64,000 nucleotides of DNA from Saliphagus infecundisoli (GTDB taxonomy: Archaea; Halobacteriota; Halobacteria; Halobacteriales; Natrialbaceae), in assembly GCF_020177375.1 (NCBI RefSeq), contig NZ_JAIWHV010000001.1:248001-312000 (forward strand). The letters run 5' to 3'. The position numbers and the translations under genes are program-made. The notes below the pieces were generated by a model that had not been told where the DNA came from, made no database searches, and saw only the letters and a program-made list of their open reading frames with translations. Shown one piece after another: positions 13,591-56,752 of this stretch. Within the stretch, counting starts at the first letter, position 1, and every line of letters begins with the position of its first letter.

Positions 13591-13664
13591 GTCCGGGTTA
13601 GGGTAGTGGACCATCCTTCAGCCTTGTGGAGGCTGAGACGCGGGTTCGATTCTCGCACCCGGAC
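13591..13664 (+). tRNA. tRNA-His (GTG)
   Basis: A complete cloverleaf can be folded. G-1 is encoded at 13591, acceptor arm TCCGGGT pairs with ACCCGGA, the D arm is GGGT/ATCC, and the anticodon stem CAGCC/GGCTG holds loop TTGTGGA with anticodon GTG at 13626-13628. The T arm is GCGGG/CTCGC with loop TTCGATT, and the discriminator is C73. An encoded G-1 opposite C73 is the normal histidine identity element in archaea. No intron and no encoded CCA are present. Copies of its T-arm/3' end lie downstream. Confidence 0.95.
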
Positions 13665-13705
13665 TTTCTGGCGACGAACGAACGTGAGGAGCCGAACGTC
13701 CGACC

Positions 13706-13784
13706 GAGATCGAACCCTGCCAGCCGCAACGGCCGAACGCAGTGAGACCGACCGTCTGGCTTCGGTTCGATTCTCGCACCCCGA
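13706..13784 (+). repeat. tRNA-His tail module: inverted T arm plus direct copy of the 3' end
   Basis: GGTTCGATTCTCGCACCC at 13764-13781 is an 18-nt exact copy of tRNA-His positions 13643-13660. Upstream, GAGATCGAACCC (13706-13717) is the reverse complement of the same T arm with one base missing. Between them lie AGCCGCA and GACCGTCT, degenerate forms of words shared with the tRNA-Ala and tRNA-Ser modules. The unit could fold into a hairpin whose stem is T-arm sequence. It is not a tRNA gene, since acceptor 5' strand, D arm and anticodon arm are absent. Confidence 0.8.
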
Positions 13785-13822
13785 TTTCGAACCTCGCCAG
13801 GAATACGCACGCGAACCGATGT

Positions 13823-18130: not shown

Positions 18131-18202
18131 GGGCTCGTAGATCAGCGGTAGATCGCTTCCTTCGCAAGGAAGAGGCCCTGGGTTCAAATCCCAGCGAGTC
18201 CA
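18131..18202 (+). tRNA. tRNA-Ala (CGC)
   Basis: The cloverleaf folds with acceptor GGGCTCG against CGAGTCC (one G-U), anticodon stem CTTCC/GGAAG around loop TTCGCAA giving anticodon CGC, T arm CTGGG/CCCAG with loop TTCAAAT, and discriminator A at 18202. It decodes GCG. No CCA and no intron are present. Two partial copies of its 3' end follow within 220 bp. Confidence 0.94.
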
Positions 18203-18253
18203 TATTCCTGCGGCGCGAGCAATTCCGCGAGCGCCGCGAATAGATGTCGAAGT

Positions 18254-18344
18254 TGGGATTTGAACTAGACCAGTCGCAGCCCGGGAGCGAGCGCAGCGAG
18301 CGACCCGGACCGTCTGGGCGTAGTTCATAATCCCAGCGAGTCCA
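18254..18344 (+). repeat. tRNA-Ala tail module, first copy
   Basis: TGGGATTTGAAC (18254-18265) is the exact reverse complement of the tRNA-Ala T arm. It is followed by AGTCGCAGCCCG (18272-18283), a GAGCGAGCGCAGCGAGCG-like palindromic stretch and GGACCGTCT (18307-18315). The module ends with a direct copy of the tRNA 3' end, ATCCCAGCGAGTCCA exact at 18330-18344, with one extra base in the loop just before it. Core words and order are the same as in the tRNA-Ser module although the flanking tRNA sequence differs. Confidence 0.82.
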
Positions 18345-55590: not shown

Positions 55591-55674
55591 GGTGGGGTGG
55601 CAGAGCGGCCCAACGCGCCTGCCTTGAGAGCAGGTGGCCGGGAGGCCTCATGGGTTCAAATCCCATCCCCACCG
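55591..55674 (+). tRNA. tRNA-Ser (TGA)
   Basis: The 84-nt class II tRNA has acceptor GGTGGGG against CCCCACC and anticodon stem CCTGC/GCAGG with loop CTTGAGA, giving anticodon TGA. A long variable arm (GGCCGGGAGGCC) is followed by T arm ATGGG/CCCAT with loop TTCAAAT and discriminator G. It decodes UCA. No intron or CCA. Its T arm and 3' end are duplicated downstream. Confidence 0.94.
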
Positions 55675-55714
55675 TTCTGTCGCGAACACTCCGTGAGCGA
55701 CAGCGAGGTCGATT

Positions 55715-55805
55715 GGATTTGAACGAGAGAAGTCGCAGCCCGCGCAGGCGAGCGAAGCGAGCCGAGCAGGACCGTCTTCGCGTGGTTCAAATCCCATCCC
55801 CACCG
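55715..55805 (+). repeat. tRNA-Ser tail module
   Basis: GGATTTGAAC (55715-55724) is the reverse complement of the tRNA-Ser T arm. It is followed by the core AGTCGCAGCCCG (55731-55742), a GCGAGCGAAGCGAGC palindromic stretch and GGACCGTCT (55769-55777). A direct 22-nt exact copy of the tRNA 3' end, GGTTCAAATCCCATCCCCACCG, closes it at 55784-55805. The core words match the tRNA-Ala module exactly. The spacing between the tRNA end and its copy is 131 bp. Confidence 0.87.
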
Positions 55806-55923
55806 CTTGTGCGACGTGTTCGCGAGCGAAGCGAGTGAACGCACGCGGGAACGGAGTTCCCGCGACGAACGGACGTGAGCAGGGAAACGGAGACGGCGGG
55901 ATTTGAACTACGGAACGAGGAGT

Positions 55924-55971
55924 GCTCTTGTGGAGAGGGTCGTTGATACGGCCCTCCCGGTGAGTCAGAAC
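55924..55971 (+). repeat. 48-bp direct repeat, left copy
   Basis: The sequence around GGGTCGTTGATACGG recurs at 56518-56566 with only a handful of substitutions and one indel. Internally GGAGAGGG and CCCTCC can pair across the conserved TCGTTGATACGG loop, so each copy is a potential hairpin. The two copies bracket the lipoprotein gene at 56118. Confidence 0.78.
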
Positions 55972-56117
55972 GGAACGCGCTCGTCTGATTGCTCACCGAT
56001 CGGGTTCCCGCCTCGACCAACTGAGCAGAGAATCGCAGGACTGGTCTCCGTCAATGTAGTGTACGTGAGGGCATCAATTTATAGTAATTTCAGAATGATA
56101 AGGGAAGAGAACACATC

Positions 56118-56516
56118 ATGATCCGAACTCGGCGGGAACTACTACACACTGGGAGTTTGATTGGATGTGTATGTCTATCCGGCTGTCAGACGTTCTCGTC
56201 ATGCTCGGCGGAAGTCGCCTGTTTTGAGTTCGAGCATGAAGGCTATGATGACGCTCCGGATGTTCTCACAATAACCCACACGGGCGGAGATTCACTACCC
56301 GCTAACGAGGTGTTCATTACGAACGTGGCAGTTGATTATAACGACGAGGAGATAGCTACCGTGCCCTGGTATGAACTCAGTGCGAACGTCGATGCAGATG
56401 ACGAGATCGAGGGTGATTCGATTACCGTTGAAATTCTTTTTCCCGAAGTGGTAGAGGTGCTATGGCGACAGGATGGTGAAGAACGGGTGATCGGGGAAAC
56501 GAGGGATTTCCGTTAA
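56118..56516 (+). CDS. small Tat-type lipoprotein (132 aa), AT-richer, flanked by direct repeats
   Basis: The N-terminus has RR at 5-6, a hydrophobic stretch and lipobox LSGC with Cys23. Two further cysteines follow at once ('SSCSAEVAC'). The mature part is beta-rich and acidic ('VLTITHTGGDSLPANEVFITNV'), a type often seen in haloarchaeal secreted proteins with a type-IV-pilin-like or Ig-like fold; I cannot name the family. Codon use is AT-richer than flanking genes. It has its own AT-rich promoter and lies between two copies of a 48-bp repeat and of tRNA-Ser tail modules. Confidence 0.75.
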   Translation: MIRTRRELLHTGSLIGCVCLSGCQTFSSCSAEVACFEFEHEGYDDAPDVLTITHTGGDSLPANEVFITNVAVDYNDEEIATVPWYELSANVDADDEIEGDSITVEILFPEVVEVLWRQDGEERVIGETRDFR

Positions 56517-56517
56517 C

Positions 56518-56566
56518 GCTCTCGTGGAGGGGGTCGTTGATACGGCTCTCCTGGTGGGCTCAGAAC
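56518..56566 (+). repeat. 48-bp direct repeat, right copy
   Basis: It begins two bases after the lipoprotein stop codon and matches 55924-55971 around GGGTCGTTGATACGG, with the stem partners GGAGGGGG and CTCTCC still able to pair. Placement directly after a stop codon also suits a terminator role. Confidence 0.78.
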
Positions 56567-56600
56567 AGAAATCTAGCGTGTCATAGGTGTAGACGAGAGA

Positions 56601-56655
56601 AGTCACAGCCCGTACAGGCGAGCGAAACGACCGACGTTCAGGTGGTTCAAATCCC
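56601..56655 (+). repeat. decayed second tRNA-Ser tail module
   Basis: AGTCACAGCCCG (56601-56612) differs by one base from the module core, GGCGAGCGAAACGA follows, and GGTTCAAATCCC (56644-56655) is a 12-nt copy of the tRNA-Ser T arm. The CATCCCCACC end is replaced by a diverged GTCCTCCCC. It lies 860 bp from the intact module, on the far side of the lipoprotein gene. Confidence 0.72.
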
Positions 56656-56752
56656 GTCCTCCCCTGACGGGTTCTCCAGTGGCTCCGTCGATACCACCCG
56701 ACCGACGGCGGCGAGGGGCAACGTTTTTGCGACCGACGCACCCACCCCGGGT

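Follow-up and report, generated by a model that had tools for sequence, protein, structure and literature searches.

What is the DNA that stands directly behind a tRNA gene and ends in a second copy of that gene's own 3' end? The question is raised by the window, the whole stretch of 64,000 nucleotides from Saliphagus infecundisoli that was analyzed, in which the tRNA genes found by ARAGORN are those for tRNA-His, -Ala, -Ser and -Thr. A first-pass annotation had reported one and the same architecture behind the Ser, Ala and His genes, in which a spacer, an inverted copy of the T arm and a shared core are followed by a sequence repeating the tRNA 3' end. Reading of the flanks bore this out at all three loci and revealed no tail behind tRNA-Thr. 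The order at the His, Ala and Ser loci is tRNA, hairpin I, an anti-T-loop sequence, hairpin II (the core, or head) and the direct copy (Table 1). What had been read as a spacer is a conserved hairpin (hairpin I), and both this hairpin and a second, damaged Ser unit had previously been missed. When Rfam was run over the window, only the four tRNAs exceeded the gathering score, the tails matching no known RNA family, and by eye no kink-turn, H/ACA, C/D or BHB motif fitted them. The second tRNA-Ser unit appears to be divided by an insertion (window 55924-56556) with a 132-aa lipoprotein-like ORF (56118-56516) between 39-nt direct repeats (55924-55962 and 56518-56556; 90%); a domain search with this ORF gave only a sub-threshold Pilin_N hint.

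Table 1. Tail units in the window, with their host tRNAs, and loci of the Halorubrum repeat that holds the same core
Feature	Position in window	Strand	Support
tRNA-His(GUG), host tRNA; nt 53-73 = 13644-13664	13591-13664	+	ARAGORN
Hairpin I, His tail	13665-13703	+	Flank reading
Anti-T-loop sequence, His	13704-13715	+	Flank reading
Hairpin II (head), His	13716-13764	+	L074, E=1e-17
Direct copy of tRNA-His nt 53-73, 18/21	13765-13785	+	Own-3'-end comparison
tRNA-Ala(CGC), host tRNA; nt 53-73 = 18182-18202	18131-18202	+	ARAGORN
Hairpin I, Ala tail	18203-18253	+	Flank reading
Anti-T-loop sequence, Ala	18254-18265	+	Flank reading
Hairpin II (head), Ala	18266-18322	+	L075, E=1e-16
Direct copy of tRNA-Ala nt 53-73, one extra base inserted	18323-18344	+	Own-3'-end comparison
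tRNA-Ser(UGA), host tRNA; nt 53-73 = 55654-55674	55591-55674	+	ARAGORN; Rfam RF00005
Hairpin I, Ser tail	55675-55712	+	Flank reading; fold statistics, 120 homologous hairpins
Anti-T-loop sequence (inverted T-arm copy), Ser	55713-55724	+	Pairing I4 and I5
Hairpin II (head/core), Ser: AGTCGCAGCCCG...GGACCGTCT, linkers GAGA / GCGTG	55725-55784	+	Model R1, E=4e-20
Direct copy of tRNA-Ser nt 53-73, 21/21	55785-55805	+	Exact match to 55654-55674 (D1)
Second anti-T-loop sequence, probably part of displaced distal Ser unit	55896-55909	+	D8, I2, I3
Second Ser head and direct copy, partly decayed; displaced by about 860 bp by the insertion	56593-56664	+	L083, E=0.001; D1, D3
Halorubrum repeat loci			L144, L152, L154, L157, L158, L161, L162, L171, L176, L177, L210, L216, L224, L226, L231

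The duplication has exact boundaries, tRNA nt 53-73 (21 nt), as shown by the identity between tRNA and copy at 186 loci, which is 0.31 at nt 51, 0.76 at nt 52, 0.98 at nt 53, 0.90-0.99 up to nt 72, 0.81 at nt 73 and 0.54 beyond; for this profile, as for the strand folding, the Haloferax comparison and the array gradient given below, most loci were collected via the core itself. The direct 3'-end copy first described is present, with its extent corrected to these 21 nt. Since it spans the T loop and the 3' strands of the T stem and of the acceptor, and lacks the 5' T-stem strand, no T arm can be formed from it. As for the inverted T-arm copy, the T loop plus about 3 nt (roughly nt 54-63) was confirmed as complementary, whereas the acceptor is not complemented. 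This anti-T-loop is tRNA-specific, with a 92% match at nt 57, and where direct copy and tRNA differ it agrees with the tRNA by 17:3 (11:6 under other anchoring), as expected if it recognizes, or is copied from, the tRNA. A mutual hairpin of the inverted and direct copies was accordingly rejected as the sole constraint.

The core GTCGCAG..ACCGTCT is one among several head types, others being the simpler GTCGCGC..CACGTCT and AGGGA..GACCG. Over 184 heads with GTCGCAG..ACCGTCT, Watson-Crick pairing reaches at least 94% at each of the five best stem pairs, several of which switch between GC, CG and AT; in sum these five show 21 G-U versus 7 A-C combinations, a count over related and thus non-independent sequences. 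Hairpin II folds better on the tRNA-sense strand (z -4.44 versus -3.78 antisense, p=1e-5) and so does hairpin I (120 homologous hairpins, p=2e-7), these and the other P values treating related sequences as independent; a control region beyond the tail showed no sense-strand advantage. The structure therefore resides on one strand, the would-be RNA, which lends partial support to the earlier idea of a tRNA-derived RNA hairpin; together with the fixed orientation reported below, it suggests that tails may be transcribed as pre-tRNA trailers. Units are about 60-150 bp in size, span about 40-180 bp between copies and are non-coding, and GTTC abuts the 3' foot of the hairpin. Both hairpins repeatedly show the motif GA-RC-GNA-GY-GA at their apex (e.g. 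window 55748-55761), and further sequences downstream contain it too.

Tails extend well past the three loci to which they had seemed restricted. In three genomes in which all or nearly all tRNAs were examined, a copy of the tRNA's own 3' end is carried by 17 of 45 (G000), 23 of 41 (G264) and 24 of 39 (G142) tRNAs, with tandem copies at 5, 8 and 10 tRNAs, respectively, and the sets of tail-bearing tRNAs are largely different. Roughly 40-60% of tRNA genes in the examined haloarchaeal genomes thus bear tail units; only these counts and a survey of tRNA-His are unbiased for presence, because the core had served to collect most of the loci. The threshold for a copy was ad hoc, a local alignment score of 12-15 of 20-21, with background scores of 6-11. 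Over 44 tRNAs of the window's genome the own-3'-end scores are bimodal, 16 being at least 13; each of these 16 takes first rank when the 3' ends of the other tRNAs are scored as well, in 15 cases unshared. Among 96 copies compared, the best match was the copy's own tRNA in 90. The specificity of the T-arm match, proposed earlier as a test, thus held, the own tRNA being matched far better than other tRNAs of the genome. The bimodal scores and, for the core, a rarer backward-read control rule out chance.

Every genome of the family (125 of 125) has the core words GTCGCAG..ACCGTCT, the backward-read control being less frequent overall, and the genomes matched in a pattern scan of named genomes were all haloarchaeal. 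A covariance model, R1, gave at least 14 tRNA-linked matches (by inspection) in the window's own genome, 13–15 in three Haloferax genomes other than H. volcanii and, in a phylum sample, 3–23 matches each in 22 of the 24 genomes belonging to the order, versus two weak matches among 124 genomes outside it. The 10 tRNAs sampled from a non-halophile of the same phylum had no true copy, a duplicated tRNA gene set aside. Tails are apparently absent from the AT-rich genome G221, with copies in 0 of 9 sampled tRNAs and no model match, and in a genome of another family (G255) a copy was found at 1 of 10 tRNAs, with a head of different type. About a dozen tRNA genes are clustered on a 34-kb contig (G000:C25:6686-9493; L307, L323), in which a strict first scan found no own-3'-end copies; a similar cluster lies at G142:C1:2635124-2637763, and both look virus- or plasmid-like.

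The occurrence of the core away from tRNAs had been named as a further test, with a mixed result: such cores exist, mainly in a Halorubrum repeat, but 85 of 125 exact pattern matches in named genomes have a same-strand tRNA in the 600 bp upstream of them, and 0 of 125 have an opposite-strand tRNA within 600 bp (orientation 85:0). Contig edges cut 8 of the others, and most of the remaining 32 belong to a long extragenic repeat of Halorubrum (CTGGGGAGGCGTGAGG ... GGGACTCAAAGGGGCAG), which holds the same core without the tRNA arms. A protein gene whose product ends in ...MTGQRCFRHD also has the core at its 3' end (L005, L052 and L071 in G004, G013 and G005), and at L052 the downstream sequence resembles a partial copy of that gene end. 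The core pattern is present in Actinarchaeum halophilum (L229) as well.

Tails might be by-products of replication or repair, fold-back and template switching at tRNA palindromes giving rise to direct-inverted-direct structures. This would fit the agreement of the anti-T-loop with the tRNA over the direct copy (17:3, or 11:6) as well as the inverted heads encountered at two tRNA-His loci (G010 and G003), from which inversion appears possible and rare. Yet it leaves unexplained the conserved heads, the constant orientation and the haloarchaeal restriction (no true copy at 10 tRNAs of one non-halophile), and we consider it improbable.

Units are gained and lost. In the His survey the copy number at tRNA-His ranged from 0 to 5 inside one family, and one array contained three identical 111-bp units in tandem. 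Comparison of orthologous tRNA loci, which the annotation had called for, showed that tRNAs of three Haloferax species differ by whole units, gain versus loss being unrooted. At Haloferax Gly-GCC, Val-UAC and Val-CAC, an extra unit lies between the tRNA and a unit with a hairpin I common to both species; at each of these tRNAs the species therefore differ by the unit nearest to it, which fits an insertion at that point. Across 52 arrays, the tRNA-proximal copy was closer in sequence to the tRNA in 30, farther in 3 and equal in 19 (p=1e-6), the youngest unit apparently being the one that adjoins the tRNA. Two elements (L287, G027:C1:1079217-1080711; L288, G005:C3:58600-59122) are apparently integrated at tRNA-His via a 43-bp att reaching from the anticodon loop to the end, and at the one in G005 an array of tail units stands behind the displaced His fragment.

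Units are also shared among tRNAs. Head similarity was 0.176 for different tRNAs of the same genome versus 0.147 between genomes (permutation p=0.002), and the type of tRNA had no effect (p=0.49), the same tRNA in another genome adding no similarity. Whole units align across different tRNAs, as between Gly-CCC and Gly-GCC (106/130) or Gly-GCC and Ser-GGA (104/126). A tail specific to tRNA identity was rejected because tRNA sets differ and heads do not follow tRNA type. These data support the proposal of a common element with acquired locus-specific tRNA ends, units being shared and arms local, and in part that of a minimal mobile element, units being gained, lost and common to different tRNAs. 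No transposition event was seen, and alternatively gain and loss could reflect unequal recombination between the 21-bp repeats, and head sharing could reflect ectopic gene conversion.

The arrangement could be matched to no known element, and its best reading is one of target-site duplication rather than classical att logic; in the open literature no description of tail units was found. With a probability of about one half, we regard them as haloarchaea-specific, small, non-coding and non-autonomous elements that insert beside tRNAs and duplicate the 3' end of the target. A unit comprises hairpin I, anti-T-loop and hairpin II, directly 3' of the tRNA and between two copies of nt 53-73. Insertion would take place where the tRNA ends, and strands joined in staggered fashion and then filled in would leave nt 53-73 duplicated, with a topology like that of repeat duplication at a CRISPR leader or of casposon insertion (PMC6977970), in which the tRNA body would correspond to the leader, nt 53-73 to the repeat and the tail to the spacer. 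Because nt 53-73 would be duplicated at each insertion, the tRNA would be left intact and new units would stack on its 3' side; related units on tRNAs with differing, local ends fit such target duplication. The anti-T-loop, complementary to the universal T loop, probably aids recognition of tRNA genes, and the unit is probably transcribed as a pre-tRNA 3' trailer and would act in folded form, either as RNA or as a single strand of DNA. Against this speaks that the anti-T-loop is tRNA-specific, a property that a sequence brought in by the element alone would lack at first. A stronger version, which we hold unlikely, envisages a new class of mobile element, in which the anti-T-loop of a tail RNA or single-stranded DNA would pair with the universal T loop and direct insertion at nt 53-73, producing CRISPR-like arrays with the tRNA gene as leader and repeat, and tails transcribed as trailers that may be regulatory RNAs.

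Candidate mobilizers were sought in carrier genomes. No integrase lies inside the units, which are too short between copies to hold one. Cas1 was rejected as a general mobilizer, being absent from five of seven carriers tested (G000, G142, G246, G264 and G175), and so was Y1 transposase, as Y1_Tnp was not found in two carriers with many copies (G264 and G175, with 23 and 17 model matches). The latter absence bears on the view that tails are single-strand DNA hairpin elements of the REP, PATE or IS200-IS605 kind, moved by a Y1 (HUH) transposase. The imperfect palindromes, in which mismatches are conserved, the preference of one strand in folding, GTTC at the hairpin 3' foot and the existence of PATEs in haloarchaea (PMC3119063) argue for it. 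However, G221 has ten Y1_Tnp matches and no detected tails, and PATEs lack a target duplication (PMC3119063), in contrast to the 21 nt duplicated in tails, so that this view appears very improbable.

The structural data are also compatible with ancient, structured pre-tRNA 3' trailers that are functional and under selection, whose copies would change by unequal recombination or gene conversion and involve no mobile element. Sense-strand structure, covariation and G-U excess, the strict orientation relative to the tRNA and the presence of tails in nearly all haloarchaea sampled are in line with this. So is the absence of a long T run before most tails, on which ground a reading as terminators was rejected. 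Stable trailer-derived RNAs have moreover been reported in H. volcanii, where one study is cited as having traced 11 tRNA-derived RNAs, with a single exception, to the 3' trailers of pre-tRNAs (Heyer et al. 2012, via PMC3544259); a circRNA-seq table for this species lists no tRNA-tail circle (PMC7714728). By contrast, the wide variation of tail-bearing tRNAs between genomes, the differing copy number at orthologous loci, heads independent of tRNA identity, a copy whose missing 5' T-stem strand precludes a T arm, and the apparent absence of tails from G221 (0/9 sampled, no model match) speak against selected trailers, and we judge this explanation rather unlikely.

That tails are recombination remnants, namely solo attachment sites of tyrosine-integrase elements crossing over in the T loop, had also been considered. 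Classically, a direct copy of the 3' end of a tRNA gene is what marks an att site (PMC8371274), mycobacteriophage Ms6 crosses over in the T loop (PMC1762012), and one tandem array was found at a His fragment of 43 bp that resembles an att site. But the units encode nothing, and an integrase element must supply its own target's tRNA end: Ms6 requires a target that agrees with its 26-bp core at every position (PMC1762012), whereas here homologous units on different tRNAs carry local arms. IMG/VR yielded 0 matches to the strict core pattern, phage matches were at chance level only and two matches were on megaplasmids; a virus- or plasmid-borne attP was thus not supported by searches of limited sensitivity (a strict pattern or one short query). 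Integrase scars were not supported as the source of the tails, and we give them little probability.

Flanks downstream of tRNAs are usually taken for att scars or passed over. In the examined haloarchaea, close to half of the tRNA genes are followed by a repeated folded unit and a copied tRNA end, so that 3'-end tRNA copies in these organisms are not safely assigned to integrase sites. If tails are mobile, they would point to an insertion system that reads a feature universal to tRNAs and lies outside known enzyme families; if they are trailer RNAs, they would supply the origin of the trailer-derived RNAs reported in H. volcanii.

Several known systems share traits with the tails. Integron attC arrays present a folded imperfect hairpin followed by GTT, in tandem, as tails do; unlike integron cassettes, no cassette genes were seen in tails, neighboring His copies lying about 106–230 bp apart. 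The H. volcanii trailer RNAs would occupy the same location, if tails are transcribed, and no account of them as recurring units that bear a copy of the tRNA end was found (PMC3544259). PATEs and small mobile repeats are likewise short, palindromic, non-coding and haloarchaeal, but they lack target duplication, and small mobile repeats mostly hit other mobile elements (PMC3119063), whereas tails sit on tRNAs with a 21-nt duplication. Elements of tyrosine integrases have in common with tails the duplicated tRNA 3' end and the T-loop boundary (PMC8371274; Ms6, PMC1762012), and tails differ in having neither integrase nor cargo, no virus matches to the strict pattern, and shared units with local arms. 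In comparison with CRISPR and casposons, the inserted tail unit is a recurring hairpin and not foreign DNA, Cas1 is absent from five of seven tested carriers, and the 3'-terminal 21 nt of a functional tRNA are duplicated instead of the 14–15 bp of casposons (PMC6977970). As in those systems, the target would be duplicated at each insertion and the new unit placed beside the leader, whose part is taken by the tRNA body. The divergence gradient and the species comparison point to such leader-proximal growth; casposons, too, use tRNA 3' ends (PMC6977970).
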